This document shows, in pieces, positions 19,993 through 62,626 of a DNA stretch of 64,000 nucleotides. The notes beneath the pieces are model-generated. The model did no database searches. It was given only the letters and a program-made list of their open reading frames with translations, and was not told the origin of the DNA. The position numbers and the translations under genes are program-made. The stretch spans positions 47,889,762 to 47,953,761 of the forward strand of contig NC_053042.1 in NCBI RefSeq assembly GCF_003473485.1, given 5' to 3'. The number at the start of each line of letters is the position of its first letter. Position 1 is the stretch's first letter. This DNA comes from Medicago truncatula (taxonomy: Eukaryota > Streptophyta > Magnoliopsida > Fabales > Fabaceae).

Positions 19993-22569
19993 TGTTGAGA
20001 TTTTATCTTCATATCTCTCTCTATAATCTCCTTAGATTAAGGGATTGTACAGTTGTATGCTTTATTTGTTTTTCCTAATTTATAGCCTCTGATATGCTAA
20101 TTCACTCCTAAGTTGTAGCTTATTTGTAACAATATATATTGATGGTATGTACCCATCTGATTCATTGAGAAAGTATCAGTAATAAAATACTTCTTTCTTT
20201 CAAGTTGGTATCAGAGCGATACCTATTTTTTTCTTTTCGAAACCCTAGCCAAAATGAGTGAAAAAAATATTGAAGCATCTGGAATAAAATCAATTCCAGT
20301 TGTGGTTCAATCTGAAGGCGTTTTTAATGCTGGAATCGTTCTTGATGAATCAAACTATGATGTTTGGTCACAATTGATGGAGATGCATATTGCTGAAAGA
20401 GAAAAACTCTCTTATATTAGGGGCAAAATGAAGAAACTTTCTGAAACTGATGATGGGTATGAGAAATGGTATGCTGAAAATCAGAAAGTGAAGAGATGGT
20501 TATTGATGTCCATGAAACCTGAAATCATGAAGAGGTATTTACGTATACCTACTGCCCATGAAATATGGAGTGCCTTGTCGAAGGCATTCTACGATGGAAG
20601 TGATGAATTGCAGGTCTTTGCATTGAATCAAAGGGCTTTTGCTGCTAGACAAAATGGAAGGCCTTTATCTGAATACTATGGAGAACTAGTTGAGATATTT
20701 CGAGAATTGGATCATCGGGATACAGTGATCATGAAAGATCCTGATGATTCAATTGCATATAAAAAATCCACTGATCGATTGAGGGTCCATATATTTTTGG
20801 CTGGGTTGGATGGCACTTTCGAGCAAGTTCGTGGGGAAATTCTGCGTAGGGATCCGATTCCAGGATTGGAAGAATGTCATGGCTTGATTCGGCGAGAAGC
20901 TGTGCGACACGCTACTCTAAAGGGGGAAACTAAAGACTTTGAATCTGCTGCAATGATGACTCGAAATCGACAAAGACCAAGTAAAGGTACAGACAAATCT
21001 GCTTACAAGTGTACCCACTGTGATCAAACTGGACATTCCAAAGATCGCTGTTATGAACTTGTGGGATATCCAGAGTGGTGGGATCACAGTCGAGCACCTA
21101 AAAAGCGGGGCTCTAAGAATGCTTTCGCTGCTGCTGCTGCTGAAACAAATGCAAATGATGACAATGGAAAAATGGGCTTATCATTGGTGACAACAACAAA
21201 TATTGATGGTAAGGCTCTAAATATCTCTGCACCTGTTTTAGATAATATATGGATAATTGATTCTGGTGCTACAAATCACATAACTTTTGATTCTAGACAT
21301 ATTGCAAATCTTAAACCCTCTTCACAAAAATCCATTTGTACTGCTAATGGTAGTGAGGCCTCAGTTGTTGGTGAAGGGTCTTTATCTCTCACTGAAACTT
21401 TAAATCTTGACTCTGTTCTAGTTGTCCCATCTTTAAATCATAACCTTTTATCTATTTCTGAAATCACAACATCCTTGTCATGTGTTGTTATTTTTTGGCC
21501 TAACTCTTGTGTTTTTAAGGACATCCGAACAAAGCAGACGATTGGTTATGGTATTAAGCGGGGGAAGCTGTATTACTTGGACTTGACTTCAAAAGGCTGC
21601 AATTTGTTGTGTCAAGCTTTGAAAGTGGAAAGCTCTAAGCAAAATAAGAATAAGACTGAAGTTTGGCTATGGCATCGACGTTTGGGTCATGCATCCTTTG
21701 ACTATATCAAAAGATTATTTCCTAGTTTGTTTGAAAATTTGGATTCTTCAATTTTTCGTTGCGATGTATGTGAACTTGCAAAAAGTCACCGAACTTCATT
21801 TCCTCTTACTTTAAATAAAAGTCCTTTTCCTTTTATGGTTATTCATTCTGATGTGTGGGGGCCATCTAAAATTTCAACATTAGGTGGCTCACGTTGGTTT
21901 GTTACCTTTATTGATGATTGTACTAGAGTAACTTGGTTGTGGTTAATGAAATCAAAAAGTGAGGTGAATTTGTTATTTCAGAAGTTCCATAAAATGATTA
22001 AAACTCAGTATAATGCTCAAATTCAAGTTCTTAGGAGTGACAATGGAGGAGAGTATAAAAGTTCTGAATTGAAACACTTCTTTGAAGTAGAAGGCATTAT
22101 TAATCAAACAACTTGTTCCAATACACCCCAACAAAATGGGGTTACTGAACGAAAAAATCGTCATTTGTTAGAGGTTGTTCGTGCTATATTAATAGAGGCT
22201 CATATGCCATTATCCTATTGGGGGGAAGCTATTGCTTTTGCAGTATATTCAATTAATCGAACACCGTCACGATCTATTGCATATAAAACACCTTTTAAAG
22301 CTCTTAGTGATGTTGTTATTGCACCAACAGTTCCAAATTTACCACTTCGTATCTTTGGTTGTGTAGTGTTTGTTCATCTTCATAAACATGAACGTAGTAA
22401 ATTAGCTCCTCGTGCCTTACGGTGTGTTTTTCTTGGATATGCTATGCATAAAATTTCTTTCAAGTTATATTTGAGCATGACAATGTGGAAAATGTATTGG
22501 AATACAAAGTTTGACACAAAATGGAACACCGTCCTTTTTTTGGACAATTTCAAAATATTATATATATAA
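19993..22569 (+). mobile_element. Broken Ty1/copia retrotransposon (fossil)
   Basis: A probable 5-prime LTR of about 210 bp (TGTTGAGA ... TTTCA, 19993-20202) is followed by a Met-tRNA primer site TTGGTATCAGAGC and, from 20254, a gag-pol frame. Parts seen in order: a copia gag region, a CCHC zinc knuckle, the protease motif DSGATNH, a GAG-pre-integrase zinc region and the integrase core with its DNGGEY and TPQQNGVTERKN motifs. The element looks incomplete and broken. The gag-to-integrase part reads well, suggesting moderate rather than great age. It lies about 100 bp upstream of the peroxidase pseudogene start. Confidence 0.88.
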
Positions 22570-25065: not shown

Positions 25066-25689
25066 AGAAGATGTCTATATTTGTTGGGTACAAACTAATG
25101 GATGAGAAATAATCTAGTAGATTAAATTTAAATTATTTGGTAAAATTTCGGGTTGAATTACCTGATAAATATAAAATAACATGCAAATGAATTGTTTTTG
25201 AAAGAAAATGTATTGTTAATTACTATTTATTTAAATTATAAATTCAAACCCTGTTTGAAGTAGAACACAAAATGAGATAAACTAGTAGAAAAGTGATATA
25301 AACTAACTATGTATTTTATATGTGATGGATATATTAACTTCATGAAATTTACAAAATAAAATAATATTATTGGAACCGTTTAATAACATATAAATTGTTA
25401 ACATTTCAAAAGGATGTGATAATGTTTTCTTGACAATCAGGATGTGATAATGAATTTAATATACCCTCTTCTTTTTTTGACCGAATATACATATTCATTC
25501 TCTTATAAACTTTGAGTCCTTTATCGTTAATTAAATAAAAATAAAATAAATCCAACATCTCTTTATTCTTTCATAGATTTCAAGGAAATTAACAAACAGT
25601 CCGTTTTGGAGTCTATGAAAAACATAAAACAGCCGATTTGATTTTTGGAGTGCGTAGCACGAGTAGTTTATTGATTTATTATTATAAAA

Positions 25690-27939: not shown

Positions 27940-29720
27940 TCCTTTAAGGGCGGCCTAAGAGAAGCGACTTCAACAGGACAGGTAGATTATCTCTAGCTAC
28001 TTCTATTTTATCTTCCATCCCGTTTTATTACATGCAAATTAATTGGCTTCCTCAAAACATTTGTGATAACATTTATCAAACAACCCGGAATTTTGTTTGG
28101 AGAGGTTTGAACAATAAGGAAGTCCACTTGGTAAATTGGAAGAAGATTACTAAGTCAAAGCATCTTGGTGGTTTGAATATTATAGCAGCTAAGGAAGCCA
28201 ATACATGTCTTCTTGGAAAACTTGTTTGGGATATGGTCCAATCAAAAAATAAGTTTTGGGTGAACCTCTTTTCCAACAAATATACAGGTGGCCCAAACAT
28301 TCTTCATGCTAATGCTCACGCCAACTGCTCTCCCTCTTGGTCTTCCATTATTCGTCCTAAAAACATCTTAAAACACGGTTACTCTTGGAGGGCGGGCGGG
28401 CTCGGGATCCTCCTCATTCTGGTTCAACAACTGGAGTCCTTATGGTTTCCTTGGTACTCTTGCTCCTATTATTGATATTCATGATCTACATCTTTCAACT
28501 AAAGACGTGTTTTCCAACAATGGATTAAACACACAAGATCTTTACACCAATCTTCCTCCCGCAATTGAAAATTACATCAACAACACACACATTATTTTCA
28601 ATGCCTTTGTTGAAGATGTGTTCATTTGATCACACAACAAAAATGGGGTTTATACTGCGAAAAGTGGAAACTCATGGCTCCTCTCCCTCTTTGAAACTCA
28701 AGCTTCCACTGCTAACAAGTTTTCTTGGTCTTGGATATGGAAAATGAAAGTCCTAGAAAAATATAAATTTCTTGTTTGGTTAGCTTGTCATGATGTCATT
28801 CCAACCCTCTCCATGCTCCATCACCGCAGTATAGCCTCACCCCTCTTTATTTCTATCTAGTCTTTGGAGGATTTGGAGGCATCGAAGTTTAATGTGCCTC
28901 AACAATGAAGTTTGGTCCCAAACTCGTCTTATCAATAACATCCACAACTTTGTTGACACTATCATTTCGTCCTTCAATCAAGAAGATTTGATTGCCTCTC
29001 CTGAGCGTTTTGTTAAGTGGAATTGTGGCAATCATATTTGTAGCATTCTGAATGTAGACGGAAGCTGTAATGGAACTCCTATTTGTACCGGTTTTCGTGG
29101 TGTGTTCCGCAACAGTTTTGGTTTCTTCCTCTCTACCTTCTCAGGTTCGATCACTCACTCTAACGATATTCTGCTGGCTGAGTTAACAGCAATCTATCAC
29201 GGTCTTAGGTTGGCAAGAAACATGGGCATCAATGATTTGGTTTGTTACTCAAATTCTCTCATTTCCATCAATCTCATACAGGGGGACACTCAGTACTATC
29301 ATGTTTATGTTGTCCTAGTTCAAGACATTAAGGAGCTTTTGACCATTGGTAATTTCTCTCTTCAGCATACTCTCAGAGAAGACAACCAATGTGCGGATTT
29401 TTTGGCCAAATTAGGGGCGGTTTCAGATGTTGACATCATTATTCATCCTACTCCTCCAGCAGACCTCCTTAGGCTGTTAAGGAGTGACACTTCGAGAGTC
29501 TTTTTCCCAATGGCGTAGTTGCTCTTTCTTTTCCTTTTCTTTGCATTTTTCTTTCTTTTCCTTGATTAGCTTTGTGACCAAGAATAATAATTTATCCTCA
29601 TAAGCCATTTTGAGTCCCAACCATTTAGTTTTAAGAACTTCTGTTTTAGAATAAAACGCTTTATTTTATTTTTTTTACTTAATTAGAATAAAACTCATAA
29701 ATTTCTTAAAAAAAAAAAAC
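27940..29720 (+). mobile_element. 5-prime-truncated L1-type LINE with RNase H
   Basis: From about 27940 the plus strand encodes the end of an L1 reverse-transcriptase region: MQINWLPQNICDNIYQ, NFVWRG, HLVNWKKITKSKHLGGLNI and LLGKLVWDMV. A degraded zinc-binding RT region follows (SWIWKMKVLEKYKFLVWLAC, about 28600-28830). Then 28892-29518 is an intact frame of 208 residues with an RNase H domain (LNVDGSCNG, LLAELTAIYHGLRLA, HTLREDNQCADFLAKLG). A T-rich 3-prime tail and an A run near 29707-29720 end the copy. At least two frame breaks separate the parts, so it cannot move by itself. Confidence 0.85.
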
Positions 29721-30487
29721 TCATAAATTTATAAGCCTAAGGCAAAGCGCAATGTAAGATTTACAACTCCTAGTTTCGCAACTCAATTGGCAACAAATGT
29801 GCTCTCTTATGGATGGCATTTATCAATCGAATTGTTTTTGGCTACATTTTTTTTTTTTTTTTTGTTTACACGATTTATCAACTGAATGAAAACTAATATA
29901 ATTAATATTTAATCCATTGGTTCCCTAATTAATTTCCATTTTTCATTTTGGTCTCATAATTAATAAAACGTACGTTTTGATCCTTCACTTTTTTCTCTGT
30001 TTGTCAATTAAATCCTGACTGTTAAGTTTAACCACAAATGCGTATGGTGGACCAACATTATATATAGTCCACCATAAACCTATTTATTTCTTTAATTTAA
30101 ACCATTCGATTTAATTTTTTAAAAAGATGAGCGTTGGATTATGAAGGTCCATTATATGTTACGGTATACCATCAATAACTACTATTTTCTCCATTTCTTC
30201 ATCTTCTTCCTTCATCAACATATCATCTTCATCATCAATCTTCATAAAAAATAAAAAATAAAAACACAGAAAACACAAAATCAAATTAACCCTTACCCCC
30301 ATCAAACCCTAAATTCAATAATGGACTTCTAATTAACCAAACCCCATTAAACCACAAACCCACAATCACAAATCAAAACCATACAATAAAAGAAAATTGA
30401 TTTTCCACCACCGCCGAATGAAGCATCAATCTTTGAGAACTGTTTATTTTTTTTAATTAGCACTACTGACATAATCTTCAAGAACTC

Positions 30488-30719
30488 AAAATACTGACAG
30501 CTTGTTGAGACCAGGACCCAGAAGACGAGGAATCTTCTTGATAACAGCTTCAGAAGCTAAAAAGGCACGGTACTTCTTTGCCAATTTCTTCACCAGTTTC
30601 TTATTTTTGTTTAGCTTCTTCAAAGCTTCAACATCCATTGATTCCAGTCCAATTTTCTGAGGCAATTTGACAGAACCACTGAAACACTTATCCTTTTGTG
30701 GGTCGTAGTTCTTTTGAGA
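30488..30719 (-). pseudogene. Captured fragment of 60S ribosomal protein L10a (uL1)
   Basis: The minus strand reads [20 protein letters not shown], then [19 protein letters not shown], then [20 protein letters not shown], then [12 protein letters not shown], and soon a stop. These are the conserved central blocks of plant uL1/RPL10a. A segment known from the intact protein between SVKLP and IGLE (around the PKMKICMLGDA motif) is absent, and both termini are missing, so this is about 75 codons of a roughly 216-residue protein. It cannot yield a working ribosomal protein. It lies inside the inverted ends of the 29926-32232 element, which explains its presence away from a full gene. Confidence 0.88.
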
Positions 30720-30860
30720 ATTGTGTTAACTGAGATTAAATAGAAAATGCTCACAAAATAAAAACTGTGTTTGGAGAATTTAATGGAAGCCATGTTACCT
30801 TGATTTACAGGAATGAGACATGTTCCAATTTTGTTTGTCTGATGTTTTGGTTAGTTTTTG

Positions 30861-31064
30861 TCACCGTGCGGTCGTCGTTGTTGTTGTTGCGGTAACTGTC
30901 ACCGTAGTTGCAGTAACTGTCGCCGTCGTTGAGTTCATCTTCGACATTGTTGCTGCGTTCCCCATTTCCCTCATAGCGTGTTCCGGATCTTCCTCATCCT
31001 GCTTCATCGCTTTCTTCTTTCCCCACCTTACACCATCAATTCCGGCGAAATCCACAACCACCAA
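30861..31064 (-). pseudogene. Coding-like GC-rich block inside the same element
   Basis: An ATG-led minus-strand frame of 67 codons (MVVVDFAGIDGVRWGKKKAM...) is followed by a Thr/Ala/Val repeat encoded by ACG/ACA/GTT triplets. The GC content stands out from the surroundings. No family is recognised. It could be a second captured fragment or simple-sequence DNA; the opposite strand is also open, which weakens the case for coding. Confidence 0.3.
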
Positions 31065-31125
31065 CAGTTCCGGCGAAATGGGGTTACCTTAATTTATCTC
31101 TTTTTATCTGTATATTTGATACAAA

Positions 31126-31852
31126 GGGTGTGTTTGGTAAAAATAGTTATAAGCTAGCTGATAGCTGAAAAGCTAACTTATAGCTGGTGGCTGATAACTA
31201 AAAAACTAACTTATTAAATTTAAAATGTTTGGTAAAATTAGCTGTTGAAATGACTGATAAATATAAAATGACATAAAAGTTCATATTTGTTTATTTTTAT
31301 TTCTTTATAAATCACATATATGATTTTTTTTCCTAATATATTTCTTTTTAATATTTCAAATTATTTTCATCTCCAAGATGATAAATGTGCTTTATGAACT
31401 CAATTGACATTTTTCAGTCAATAAATTTTATTTTTTTTACTAACTTTATTTAACTAAACTAGCTTCACAATTTATTTATTATTATAATTAAAATTAAATA
31501 CTACATTAATTAAAAGCAATGTCATAAAGAAAAAGTTAACAACAAAATAGAAAAAAGTATATCGTGTGGGTAGGGTAGGTTGGTTGTAGTAAACTATAAA
31601 AACATGGGAACATGGGTAGTTTATTTTTCTTTTATAAAATATTAAAATTAATGTAATAAGGTTAAAATTGGAAAAAATTATAAAAAGTTATCAGCTATAA
31701 GCTAAAAAGCTACTTGAAATAGCTTTTTAAAAAACGCAATAAGCTCATGAGAAAAGCTTGTTACCAAACACATCACGTTTTCATCCAACTAGCTTATAAG
31801 CTAGTCCAACAAGCTATAAGTTAGCTTATTTGTGTTATCAAACACAGACTAA
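31126..31852. mobile_element. Non-autonomous AAGCTAGCT-rich MITE nested in the Pack-MULE
   Basis: Inverted ends GGTGTGTTTGGTAA and (reverse complement) GTCTGTGTTTGATAA bound about 725 bp. Sub-terminal copies of TTATAAGCTAG, GCTATAAG and AGCTTATTTGTG recur inverted. A shorter member of the family forms the core of the palindrome at 53104-53825. The class is probably hAT, but no exact 8-bp duplication was found. Confidence 0.65.
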
Positions 31853-32232
31853 GTAAAGGTACAATGTTATGGTGATTGTGATATAGTTGATTCTGGTTTT
31901 TTCTTTCCTTTATTTTCTGGATTTTATTTGATGAATGTTGATGAAGATCAAGATGAAGAAGAAGTTGTGGGAAAGAAGATGAAGAAATGGGAAAGAAATT
32001 AAATGTTGTTGACTTACGGAAGGTAGAGTAGACATGCATAATCTAACGATCATGTTTTAATAAAAAAGATCAAATAGTTTAAATTAAAAAAGTGAAGGAC
32101 CATCACTAACAGAACTTTTATTATTTTGACAGAAAGGATCTATTTGGCAAACGGAGAAAAAAATGAGGGACCAAAACGTACGTTTTATTAATCGTGGGAC
32201 CAAAATGAAAACTTGAAATTAATTAGGGGATG

Positions 32233-32660: not shown

Positions 32661-33821
32661 TCACAAGGGCATTGAGTCTAATAATTTGACAACCTCTGGC
32701 ATTTCAGGTCTATCTTTCTGTAACTCACCAGTACACATGCAAGCAATACGTACATACTCCCTAACACTCTCCTCCTTCAACCCTTCTTCTCTTGGAATAT
32801 TTCCATCCAACATCTCTAGTTCAGTGTTCCTTTCCTTCATCTTCCTGGCCCAATTAACAAGCCCAATATCATTTCCTTCCAATTTCACAGCCAAATTGGG
32901 CCTATGGCCCGACACGGTTTCAATCATCAACACTCCGAAACTATACACATCCACTTTCGGGTTTGCTACATTAGACCCATCTCGATACTCAGGTGGCATG
33001 TAACCTATAGTACCCGCCACCTGCGTTGACACATGCGAATGTGATTTATCCATCCTACGTGCGAGTCCGAAATCAGCTATATGGGCCTCAAACTCAGAGT
33101 CCAACAAAACATTACTGGCCTTGATATCTCGATGAATAATGGGCTTTTCAAGCCCATGTAAATAACAAAGCCCATGAGCAACACCACGTATGATTTTGAC
33201 ACGTGTTTCCCATGGCAAAGGAGAACGAATAAAATCGATTGAAATAGAAACCTCATCGTTTTGGTGAGTGGAAGAAGAGGTTGGAGATGATTCATGAAGC
33301 CATTGATCGAGGTTTCCTTTTTCAATGAACTCGTAAACGAGTAACCGTTCAGCTCCAGAAGCCCAATAACCGAGGATTTTCACGATGTTGTGGTGGCGGA
33401 GTTTGCTTAGCGTTTCCATCTCCGCTGCGAATTCACGGAAGCCTTGAAAAGCGTCAGGGGAGAGTTTTTTGACGGCGACGGTAGCGCCGGTGGAGAGACT
33501 AGCTTTGTAAACATAGCCGAAGCTACCATCGCCGACGATGAGGGTGTTGGAGAAATTTTTTGTAGCGCGTGAGAGTTCTTCCATGGAGATTTTGAGATTT
33601 GGATCCCATGACCAGCTGGCATCGACGGGGAGGGAGGAGGAGCTGGTTGGGTAATGATTTGGGTTACGAAGTGGTCGGGTTCGGATCTGGTTGTTACGGC
33701 GGGTTTGGGTGGTTTTGCGGTGTTGGCAGATGAGGATGATGGCGGCGAGTATGACTGTGACGACGAAAAAACTGGCGATGGCGGCGAGGACGGCTAGGGC
33801 AGCGTGATCCATGCAAGGCAA
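32661..33821 (-). CDS. Ectodomain-less membrane receptor-like Ser/Thr kinase
   Basis: Intronless frame of 386 residues. A hydrophobic stretch at about residues 8-32 (ALAVLAAIASFFVVTVILAA...) acts as the membrane anchor. There is no signal peptide cleavage region and no LRR, lectin or other ectodomain. A basic juxtamembrane part follows, then a full kinase domain: GDGSFGYV (97-104), VAVKKL with Lys118, Glu134 in the C-helix, HRDIKASN with Asp232 (an RD kinase), DFG 250-252, and the activation segment TIGYMPPEY. Block wording such as RGVAHGLCYLHGLEKPIIHR and DGSNVANPKVDVYSFGVLM resembles the kinase domains of LRR-RLK group X (PSKR/EMS1-like), which is from memory. It probably relays signals at the plasma membrane through a partner receptor. 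The upstream leader has GA-rich repeats (GAGAGAAAGAGAG). Confidence 0.92.
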   Translation of the reverse strand: MPCMDHAALAVLAAIASFFVVTVILAAIILICQHRKTTQTRRNNQIRTRPLRNPNHYPTSSSSLPVDASWSWDPNLKISMEELSRATKNFSNTLIVGDGSFGYVYKASLSTGATVAVKKLSPDAFQGFREFAAEMETLSKLRHHNIVKILGYWASGAERLLVYEFIEKGNLDQWLHESSPTSSSTHQNDEVSISIDFIRSPLPWETRVKIIRGVAHGLCYLHGLEKPIIHRDIKASNVLLDSEFEAHIADFGLARRMDKSHSHVSTQVAGTIGYMPPEYRDGSNVANPKVDVYSFGVLMIETVSGHRPNLAVKLEGNDIGLVNWARKMKERNTELEMLDGNIPREEGLKEESVREYVRIACMCTGELQKDRPEMPEVVKLLDSMPL

Positions 33822-34020
33822 GAGAGAAAGAGAGTAAATTTATTGAGATTTGAGAGAGAAGGGGGGAAAAGATGGAATGAATGGTGTATGTAAGTTGAGT
33901 GGAAGGAATAAAAGGGTTTCGTGGAAAGTGTTGTTTGTAAGAGAGTTGACTAGACCAGTCAATGGTTTTTGTTTGCTTCTCTGGACTTAATCATTCAAAC
34001 AAGTATACTCTCTTTTCTTG

Positions 34021-43122: not shown

Positions 43123-43779
43123 GAGGCATATCACATGAGAATGGGTATCTTATGTGAGAATGATGAGAATAAATTACAGCCGTCAGATTAAAAATAATGG
43201 GTGAGATTAAAACATCACTTAAGTGACTCATGTGCCAAGCATGTGACCAATTCTCTCCCTCTTTTTCATCGTTCATGCACGCGCATTTCATCCTCATAAA
43301 GCTTGAACTTTCTTTCTTCCTTCAAATGGTGATAGGGTTATTATAATTGGTCATATGGTTATTGTCTACTTGCAACAGAACCATCAAAATCGAGATTGTG
43401 GCAGATTGATTGCAGATAAAATAGAAACGCATGACAGATTGCAGATTGAAATTGAAATAGAAAAACAAATTCAATCCCTAAATTCTAAAAAGAAGTCAAA
43501 TTAGAAGAAATTTGATGGAAACTTTCAAAAGGGGATGAAAGATGGTATACGAAGAATCGGTGGAAGATGGAACGGCAAACCCAGAAGAGGGAGAAGAAAA
43601 CCAGTGACACACGAGAATGAAGGAAGCGTGAACGATGGAAAAGAGGGAGAGAATTGGTCACATCCTTGGCACATGAGTCACTTAAGTGATGTTTTAATCT
43701 CACCCATTATTTTTAACCTACGGCTGTAATTTATTCTCATCATTTCACATAAGATACTCATTCTCATGTGGTATGCCCC
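43123..43779. mobile_element. MULE-like element with ~155-bp inverted ends
   Basis: Left end GAGGCATATCACATGAGAAT and right end (reverse complement) GGGGCATACCACATGAGAAT continue as inverted repeats for about 155-180 bp, sharing CACTTAAGTGACTCATGTGCC and AATTCTCTCCCTCTTTT. A 9-bp TATATATAT flanks both sides (43114-43122, 43780-43788). That duplication is low-complexity and so only supporting. The interior of about 300 bp is non-coding. Confidence 0.75.
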
Positions 43780-45081: not shown

Positions 45082-45642
45082 TTGACTTAATTGCACTTTT
45101 GGTCCTCACATTTTGACCAGCTCACGAAAATGGTTATGCCTCTTTCAAATTGAACAAAATCGTCCATAAACTATCATGTTTTTTTTGCAGTTTTAGTCAT
45201 ACCTCCTGTTTTCAAATCCAGAAACGCACAAAATAGCAGTTTTAGTCGTACCACCTATGCACAACCATGAAATAAGCAAGGAATAAAACATATGGCTAAA
45301 AGGAATCTCCTTTATTCAGCACACTAACAAAACAAAACTAATTTCTAAGACCCTAATTTCAGGTAACATGTCTTAGAAATTAGGGTTTTTTGGTTGGTGT
45401 GCTGAATAAAGTAGATTCATTTTACCCACATGCTTTATTCCTTGTTTATTTCATGGTTGAACATAGGTGGTACGACTAAAACTAACTGCCATTTCTATGT
45501 GTTTCTGGAGTTGAAAATAGGGGGTAGGACTAAAACTGCAAAAAACATGATAGTTAGGTGACGATTTTATTCGATTTAAAAGAGACATGACCATTTTCAT
45601 GAGCTGGTCAAAATACAAGGACTAAAAATGCAATTAAACCTT
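45082..45642. mobile_element. 560-bp fold-back element (long hairpin)
   Basis: Two arms of about 260 bp pair almost throughout. Outer words are TTAATTGCACTTTTGGTCCT against AGGACTAAAAATGCAATTAA. Further in, GACCAGCTCACGAAAATGG pairs with its inverse, and the centre has AATTTCTAAGACCCTAATTT facing TCTTAGAAATTAGGG. Non-coding. A transcript across it would form a long double strand. Confidence 0.85.
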
Positions 45643-52856: not shown

Positions 52857-54062
52857 TACATTACCCTCTCTTGTTTAGAGGGTATTTACCCCTTCAAGAT
52901 ACCAACCAATCAAAATGTAATATACAAATGTAACATTAAATGTCAAATAAATGAGTCAATTTTTCTATAAAAAAAAAATCAATTTTAATAAGGTAACTTT
53001 TAATTTTTATTTAATTATATTTAGGTATACAATCTTAATTAATTTACACTGTAGGACTTGTAACAATTAAAATTTCACATCAAATTTAATCCATCATGGA
53101 TGAAGTGTTCGGTAAAATTAGTCGTTGAAGTGGCTAATAAGTATAAAATGACATGTTTATATATATATATAGACATTTTTTCTAATGTATTTATTTTTTA
53201 ATATTTTAATTTATGCTTAACTATGTTTTGGATCCCTATATATATATTCAAACTTTTGGTTTTAGTCTCCAATAAAATTTCACCGACAATTTTGATCTTA
53301 GTTTTTTTTTTTTTTTTTGTACAAAAGAGGAAAAAAGCTCATTGATCTCTACTTTTATGAATCCCAAAAATAAGAGGAAGGTGGAAAAAAATGCAAGCAA
53401 GAATATATAAAATTTTACAACGTACCGTAGGCTAGTTATAGTTAAATATAAAACATTTCTTTTAAGAAATATATATAAAGCGTTCATTAAAATATAAAAT
53501 AAAGCATGACAGTTTTTTTTTTTTCAAAGGAGAAAACGTGGCAGTTGTTTTATTAAAAAATAAGCTATGAACTTTGCCGTTATTTTTTAAGCCATGAACA
53601 TTTTGTTTTATTAAAAAATAATTATATTAAATTAATAGGGTTAAAATTGGAAGAAAATATAAAAAAACTACCAGCTATAAGTTCAAAAGCTACTTGAAAT
53701 AGCTTCTCAAAAAACGCCATAAGCTAGTTAAAAAAGCTTTTTACCAAACACATCTTATTATATCAAAACAAGCTTATAAGCTAGTCCAACAAGCTATAAG
53801 CTAGCTTATTCGTGTTACCAAATGCATCCATGATGAGTTGAATTTGATGTGAAATTTTAATTGTTACAAGCCATATAGTGTAAATTAATTAAGATTGTAT
53901 ACCTAAATATAATTAAATAAAAATTAAAAGTTACCTTATTAAATTGATTTTATTTTTATAGAAAAATTGACTCATTTATTTGACATTTAATGTTACATTT
54001 GTATATTATATTTTGATTGGTTGATATATAAATACCCCCTAAACAAAAGAGGATAATCTAGG
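52857..54062. repeat. Nested palindrome: ~230-bp inverted arms around a MITE
   Basis: Left arm 52857-53103 and right arm 53826-54062 are inverted copies. Shared words include CTCTTGTTTAGAGGGTATTT, ACCAACCAATCAAAA, GTAACATTAAATGTCAAATA and CATCAAATTTAA. Between the arms lies an AAGCTAGCT-rich MITE core (53104-53825) related to 31126-31852 but lacking its first ~85 bp. About 75 bp of direct repeat, AAAGAGATCCAT...AAGATACAT, flanks the whole at 52773-52850 and 54071-54142. Confidence 0.8.
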
Positions 54063-54508: not shown

Positions 54509-54570
54509 CACTCCAACACCTATGAAACCAAACACACTCCCGTCAAACCAAGGAACCCTAATTTAAAAAA

Positions 54571-55101
54571 ATGAATTCTTCAACAATTTGTTCCATGTTC
54601 CTTGGTTTGATCCTAATTTCTCAATCACCATTTGCATCAAATGCAAGACTTCTTGGTTTAGGAGGAGGAGGAGGACCATTAGTTTCCTTAATTTGCGCTG
54701 CTTCATCCAACAAGGTAGAATGTAGCAATGTTCTATCGAGCCCACAAATAGCGCAAGCCAAGGATAACAAACAACTCTCAATAGCTGTCGTTGAAATCGC
54801 CATAAAAAAATCTGTCGAAGGACAAGCTTTTCTTAAAGGATTGGCACAAAAAAATCCAAAACTTGAAACATGTGCAGGTTTTGCTTATGATGGAGTAGTA
54901 GGGTCTTTCAAAAGTTGCTTGGGTGAAATCACTGAGGATCCTCAAACTGCTAGTTATGATTGCAAAGTTGCTGTTGATGGACCTACTCAATGTGATAGAG
55001 TAATGGCTGATGAGCATATTGTTAACCCTGCTATTACTGCTCTTAACAAGCAAATCGCATTCCTTAGTGAACTTGCATCCAAAGCCGTTGATAAACTTTA
55101 A
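54571..55101 (+). CDS. Secreted invertase/pectin methylesterase inhibitor-like protein, copy 1
   Basis: Intronless, 176 residues. MNSSTICSMFLGLILISQSPFASNA is a signal peptide (split here: residues 1-25), followed by a Gly run and the four-helix PMEI fold. The first disulfide hairpin is C42-C51 (ICAASSNKVEC). The second pair is probably C101 and C141, with two extra cysteines, C116 and C131. The C-terminal helix reads NPAITALNKQIAFLSELASK. Family members bind and inhibit cell-wall or vacuolar invertases or pectin methylesterases; sequence alone cannot tell which. The Cys pattern and length fit, though the family is very diverse. The gene has an almost identical neighbour 7.5 kb downstream in the same orientation. 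Expression control is not visible beyond the TATA box. Confidence 0.82.
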   Translation: MNSSTICSMFLGLILISQSPFASNARLLGLGGGGGPLVSLICAASSNKVECSNVLSSPQIAQAKDNKQLSIAVVEIAIKKSVEGQAFLKGLAQKNPKLETCAGFAYDGVVGSFKSCLGEITEDPQTASYDCKVAVDGPTQCDRVMADEHIVNPAITALNKQIAFLSELASKAVDKL

Positions 55102-62012: not shown

Positions 62013-62019
62013 TATAAAA
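62013..62019 (+). promoter_or_regulatory. TATA box of the second inhibitor gene
   Basis: TATAAAA in the same TTACTATAAAACAC context as copy 1, 71-77 bases before the ATG. Confidence 0.65.
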
Positions 62020-62089
62020 CACCCCAACACCTATGAAACCAAACACACTTTTCCTCAAACCAAGGAACCCTAATTTAAAAAAAAAAAAT

Positions 62090-62626
62090 ATGAATTCTTC
62101 AACAATTTGTTCCCTGTTCCTTGGTTTGATCCTAATTTCTCAATCACCATTTGCAGCAAATGCAAGAGTTCTTGGTTTAGGAGGAGGAGGAGGAAGAGGA
62201 CCACTGGTTTCCTTACTTTGCGCTGCTTCATCCAACAAGGTAGAATGTAACAAGGTTCTATCAAGCCCACAAATCACGCAAGCCAAGAATTACAAACAAC
62301 TCTCAAAGGCTGTCATTGAAATGGCCTTAAAAAAAGCTGTCGAAGGACAAGCTTTTCTTAAAGGATTGGCACAAAAAAATCCAAAACTTGAAACATGTGC
62401 AGGTTTTGCTTATGATGGAGTAGTAGGGTCTTTCAAAAGTTGCTTGGGTGAAATCACTGAGGATCCTCAAACTGCTAGTTATGATTGCGGTGTTGTTGGT
62501 GACGGACCTACTCAATGCGATAGAATAATGGCTGATGCGCATATTGTTAACCCTGCTATTACTGCTCTTAACAAGCAAATCCTATTCCTTAGTTCTCTTG
62601 CATCCAGAGCCGTTGATAAACTTTAA
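62090..62626 (+). CDS. Secreted invertase/pectin methylesterase inhibitor-like protein, copy 2
   Basis: Intronless, 178 residues, in-phase paralogue of the gene at 54571. I chose the ATG at 62090 because it matches the copy-1 start and opens the signal peptide; an upstream in-frame ATG at 62033 would add 19 polar residues before it and lies in the shared leader. All six mature cysteines of copy 1 are kept. Differences include a two-residue insertion (Arg-Gly) in the Gly run after the signal peptide, several changes in helix two (for example Ile to Met and Ser to Ala), and GVVGDG in place of KVAVDG before the last cysteine. The central 40 residues (AFLKGLAQKNPKLETC through the ITEDPQTASYDC segment) are identical. 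Role is as for copy 1: apoplastic inhibitor of invertase or pectin methylesterase, specificity unknown. Confidence 0.83.
   Translation: MNSSTICSLFLGLILISQSPFAANARVLGLGGGGGRGPLVSLLCAASSNKVECNKVLSSPQITQAKNYKQLSKAVIEMALKKAVEGQAFLKGLAQKNPKLETCAGFAYDGVVGSFKSCLGEITEDPQTASYDCGVVGDGPTQCDRIMADAHIVNPAITALNKQILFLSSLASRAVDKL

Follow-up and report, generated by a model that had tools for sequence, protein, structure and literature searches.

Results and Discussion

A pair of long inverted arms encloses a fragment of an RPL10a gene

The Medicago truncatula DNA analysed here, a stretch of 64,000 nucleotides referred to as the window in the following, harbours a pair of long inverted arms between which a fragment of the gene for ribosomal protein L10a (RPL10a/uL1) lies on the minus strand. 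The fragment carries an internal deletion and is accompanied, within the same element, by a GC-rich block and a nested AT-rich insert (Table 1). The limits assigned to this element in an initial annotation, which had been made from the letters of the DNA, were 29926-32232 and lie within 4 nt of those determined by us (29923-32228).

Table 1. Features of the RPL10a-bearing element and their positions in the window
Feature	Position	Strand	Remarks
Left inverted arm	29923..30316	+	outer 100 nt best conserved
Exact core ATTAATAAAACGTACGTTTTG, 21 nt, longest exact arm match	29959..29979	+	inverted in right arm; its 15-mer at 32172-32186 (-)
RPL10a/uL1 fragment	30501..30713	-	residues 38-129 of 216, 21 missing inside; stop-free
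Junction of the internal 21-residue deletion (KLP/Q-KIGL)	30657..30662	-	hand-derived from codon order
GC-rich block, G+C 0.49	30850..31095		
Nested AT-rich MITE-like insert, imperfect inverted ends	~31125..31845		limits approximate
Right inverted arm	31863..32228	-	

The outermost arm segments (29923-30025 and 32126-32228) comprise 103 nt each and are 85% complementary. In a gapped alignment the similarity runs inward to about 30316 on the left and to about 31863 on the right, the arms being about 370-390 nt long. This alignment reaches a score of 281, while 300 dinucleotide shuffles average 41 and do not exceed 71. Arm identity amounts to 69% across 373 aligned columns and to 77% if ungapped columns alone are counted; the distance between the arms is 0.234 over 355 ungapped columns, or 0.28 with Jukes-Cantor correction. 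Divergence is lowest in the outer 100 nt (14 of 99 sites, 14%) and amounts to 26-28% in the three inner segments, a gradient that constraint on the ends, as transposase sites, would produce. An extension of the arms inward past the nested insert was rejected as not significant, its score being attained by 84 of 300 shuffles.

At the outer edge of both arms the similarity opens with a 14-nt perfect match. Within the exact 21-nt core lies the palindrome AAAACGTACGTTTT; the inner 15-mer of the core, with up to two mismatches permitted, is present in the window at the two arm ends only (four overlapping matches; mean 0.19 and largest count 3 in shuffles). No further copy of the arm was found within the 64-kb window, and the core gave 0 matches to viral contigs, in which plant DNA is not expected. 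Pairing of the arms is associated with a duplex energy of -263.8 (plus strand) and -255.3 (minus strand), compared to -116.4 and -111.8, respectively, as the best values among 40 mononucleotide shuffles.

The RPL10a fragment is shortened at its 3' side and deleted inside

As query we used a full-length RPL10a protein sequence, which was compared with two PDB chains. Tblastn of this query against the window produces a single strong match on the minus strand (30713-30462, E 1.9e-34), whose convincing part covers residues 38-129; the tail past residue 129 is unlike RPL10a and contains a stop. The Pfam family Ribosomal_L1 matches the fragment with 38 bits at a cut-off of 32.2. The initial annotation had placed an RPL10a fragment on the minus strand between inverted ends, and both the tblastn match and the arm alignment bear this out. 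No convincing RPL10a exons continue outside the element, nor does the window hold another convincing RPL10a match, the best of 13 further tblastn matches having an E value of 0.92.

The recognisable part of the gene comprises 71 codons, instead of the 75 initially attributed to it, within a 79-codon stop-to-stop frame (30486-30725). This frame has no upstream start codon and its first Met is located inside the RPL10a fragment; the 70 codons of 30501-30710 are free of stops. The stretch of the protein that had been reported as missing inside the fragment corresponds to 21 residues and is lost in frame. The similarity breaks off after residue 129 (of 216) and the gene's 3' part is absent; what is present are residues 38-129 minus these 21, not a full coding region of some 216 residues. 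The 71 codons contain no intron. Splice-like sites flanking the fragment were spotted by eye, namely CTCAAAAG before AAC and CAAGGTAACA at about 30798 on the minus strand.

Compared to the query, 5 of 71 residues of the fragment differ, one of them at the junction. With the junction residues excluded, 6 of 69 residues differ from PDB chain 9vtg_LA and 9 of 69 from 4v3p_LA. At five sites these two chains are alike and the fragment is different, although at two of the five it agrees with the query. The closest RPL10a PDB chains include those of 4v3p/4v7e, which we take to be from wheat. A comparison of the fragment with viral contigs, where plant DNA is not expected, gave 56 pattern stretches, 0 of which were confirmed. 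Since a start codon is absent, less than half of the protein is represented and a hole is present inside, the fragment cannot encode the ribosomal protein. The product of the element is most likely an inert relic.

Other contents of the element and its surroundings

The G+C content of the arms is 0.29-0.30, in contrast to 0.49 in the GC-rich block and 0.24 in the MITE-like stretch. Both the second GC-rich block and the nested MITE of the initial annotation are thus recovered, the latter as an AT-rich MITE-like insert with relatives elsewhere in the window, at 53601-53822 (83% over 223 nt), 53103-53154 and 25121-25182. A Pfam scan of two ORFs of the GC-rich block reveals no family above the cut-off. 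Transposase was found neither among three scanned ORFs of the element nor among the 12 scanned of the 15 window ORFs of at least 130 aa, and between 29000 and 33200 there is no Rfam match at gathering score.

Inverted pairs of at least 60 nt within 6 kb occur seven times in the window, the RPL10a element included; hence, such structures are common here. A long inverted-repeat structure at 52899-54027 shows arm matches of 133 nt (92%) and 109 nt (88%) and contains, in its interior (about 53103-53824), two pieces akin to the MITE-like stretch 31125-31845. A further pair at 43185-43719 (94 nt at 96%, 347 nt between) is perhaps a young MITE, and at 45087-45637 inverted pairs are nested (one of 98 nt at 85%, the other of 114 nt at 89% and with arms 18 nt apart), which makes a hairpin-like element. 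Reverse-transcriptase-like remains at 27948-29518, which may be a LINE 3' end, lie about 400 nt from the RPL10a element, and the ORF 28835-29518 exhibits an RVT_3 domain (E 2e-19). At 20161-22566 a copia-type gag-integrase ORF of 802 aa is found. On the other side a protein-kinase ORF on the minus strand (32661-33839) ends about 430 nt from the right end of the element. PMEI is matched by two ORFs (54562-55098 and 62018-62623), each with E 1.9e-5 and short of the Pfam cut-off; they start nearly alike, with MNSSTICS.FLGLILISQSPFA, and perhaps go back to a local duplication. The window also shows peroxidase and receptor-like-kinase-like matches.

Target duplication and tentative assignment to the Mutator-like elements

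Pack-MULEs are recognised by a target site duplication of 8-11 bp directly outside the TIRs with at most two mismatches (excerpts of PMC3903597 and PMC3310237). We let the arm ends vary between 2 nt inward and 6 nt outward and looked for duplications of 8-11 bp with at most two edits, which is slightly looser than the rule as it appears in the excerpt of PMC3903597, and obtained 0 candidates; the 9-bp duplication envisaged by the initial annotation is accordingly lacking at the ends of the element. As 69 of 300 random pairs yield a match in the same scan, even a positive result would be weak. The lack of a target duplication is a true negative, though a duplication would equally be lost by decay or by trimming of an end. 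A wider scan (ends +-15 nt, 9-11 bp, two mismatches) gives 11 matches, nine of which lie around an AATTAAT stretch, and in 0 of the 11 are both ends outside the arms; random pairs give matches in 142 of 200 cases. A candidate duplication, AATTAATT, was rejected, being a palindrome inside both arms with an equal score in 8 of 60 random pairs. Four other inverted-repeat loci were scanned from 3 nt inside to 8 nt outside, and three of the four show duplication matches, one of them in T-rich sequence.

The TIR library of tomato MULEs was built with a minimum of 100 bp at a similarity of at least 80% (excerpt of PMC3310237), values which are exceeded by the 103 nt at 85% of the present element. MULE TIRs often measure hundreds of bp (excerpt of PMC6446971), and a host-gene fragment, as demanded of a Pack-MULE, does lie between the arms. 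Of the designation Pack-MULE, the long arms and the captured host-gene fragment therefore stand, while the target duplication was not found, which is why we term the element MULE-like and not a proven Pack-MULE.

Origin of the element

We consider it probable, at roughly 0.6, that the locus represents an old non-autonomous long-TIR element, most like a Mutator-like element (MULE), with a captured piece of RPL10a. The two arms would then be the ends of a transposon, whose superfamily would be Mutator and which would hold at least the GC-rich block and one shortened RPL10a piece between its ends. Nowhere in the window other than between the arms is RPL10a similarity convincing, which argues for such a capture, and arms with 103 nt at 85% together with their MULE-like length argue for a Mutator-like element. 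Against it speak the lack of a target duplication, the failure to see a transposase in the scanned ORFs and the absence of another arm copy in the window.

The same missing duplication would be in line with two separate insertions of one repeat family in opposite orientations, which flank an RPL10a pseudogene fragment and never formed one mobile unit. An arm identity of just 69% and the abundance of long inverted repeats in the window point in this direction as well, but the arms are oriented toward each other in the manner of TIRs, their outer ends are the most conserved parts, and the perfect match of 14 nt starts the similarity at the outer edge of both, so that we regard an origin from two insertions as rather unlikely. 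Clearly less probable is a long-TIR element of another superfamily, for instance of the hAT or foldback type, which holds the fragment as a "Pack-TIR". The absence of a MULE-type duplication is compatible with this as well, and other TIR elements such as a frog hAT do take up host sequence (excerpt of PMC8277862); the length of the arms, however, fits MULEs best (excerpts of PMC3310237 and PMC6446971). Maintenance of the fragment as a functional short ORF or as an RPL10a-regulating RNA is very improbable, for the stop-free 70 codons with few replacements given the arm distance and the possible hairpin of the arms are opposed by the missing in-frame upstream start, the 21 lost residues, the replacements at five sites where both PDB chains agree and the ease with which the frame stays open in neutral simulation (see below).

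Pairing of the arms could feed ordinary silencing of the element, and long MULE TIRs have been linked with siRNAs (excerpt of PMC6446971). The RPL10a piece is situated in the interval that separates the arms, so that small RNAs of RPL10a would not arise from arm pairing alone, and the window offers it no further copy as a pairing partner. A putative regulation of RPL10a through small RNA is possible but unsupported.

With Pack-MULEs, reportedly described by Jiang et al. in 2004, the MULE-like element shares long inverted arms enclosing a truncated host-gene fragment, a GC-rich segment and a nested insert, and likewise no transposase is seen inside (three ORFs scanned); it differs from them in lacking the 8-11 bp target duplication. 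Its arms, at an ungapped identity of 77%, are also less alike than the outer TIRs in three PM-ZIBP rows of tomato Pack-MULEs (87, 94 and 92%; excerpt of PMC3310237). The fragment itself resembles a truncated or processed ribosomal-protein pseudogene, as generally known, in being shortened, deleted inside and intronless over 71 codons; unlike such a pseudogene it sits between inverted arms and has lost the 3' part of the gene beyond residue 129. MULEs abound in soybean as well, for which SoyTEdb lists 2,373 Mutators (excerpt of PMC2830986). Capture of gene fragments by long-TIR elements is well known in plants, and the RPL10a element is one more case.

Age of the captured piece

If the arms were alike at insertion, the whole-arm clock gives d = 0.14 per arm (half of 0.28) and the outer 100 nt give d = 0.078 per arm (half of the distance of that segment). 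In a neutral simulation of 70 codons, d = 0.14 leads to a mean of 20.7 replacements, with at most six changes in 0 of 5000 runs and at most nine in 5 of 5000; the fragment shows 5-9 replacements against the three references. At d = 0.078 the respective counts are 151 and 1010 of 5000. Six or fewer changes in combination with a stop-free frame result in 3870 of 5000 runs at a rate of 0.02 and in 1111 of 5000 at 0.05. Rates of about 0.02-0.07 fit the captured coding piece, in contrast to 0.28 substitutions per site between the arms. At d = 0.14, 1228 of the 5000 neutral runs keep a frame free of stops; hence, an unbroken frame is not rare in the absence of selection.

Judged by the whole-arm clock, the captured RPL10a piece may postdate the arms. 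The runs at d = 0.078 match the observed changes more often, so that on the outer-arm clock the fragment need not be younger. If selection has slowed the outer ends, as we presume, the inner arms would be the better clock and the fragment would be the younger part. As other readings of the ages it remains that the arms were never identical, that an ordinary capture is as old as the outer arms, or that selection has acted on the fragment, the last being the least likely because of the internal hole and the missing start.

With more reserve than for the nature of the element as such, we infer that the RPL10a fragment might have been copied in by gap repair and template switching once the arms had begun to diverge. 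Capture by gap filling without transposition has been argued for most single-copy Pack-TIRs of animals, and a cargo possibly younger than its element would be a feature shared with them, although the RPL10a element belongs to a plant; for Pack-MULEs, transposition-independent capture is called unknown in the same source (all from excerpts of PMC8277862). That gap repair brought the piece, with no transposition, into a MULE-like element which had decayed before, by the animal Pack-TIR route in a plant, appears unlikely on the whole. The RPL10a element is of wider interest only in that its arms and its cargo possibly differ in age: if real, such a difference could serve, together with the parent gene and relatives, to test whether plant MULEs also capture without transposing.
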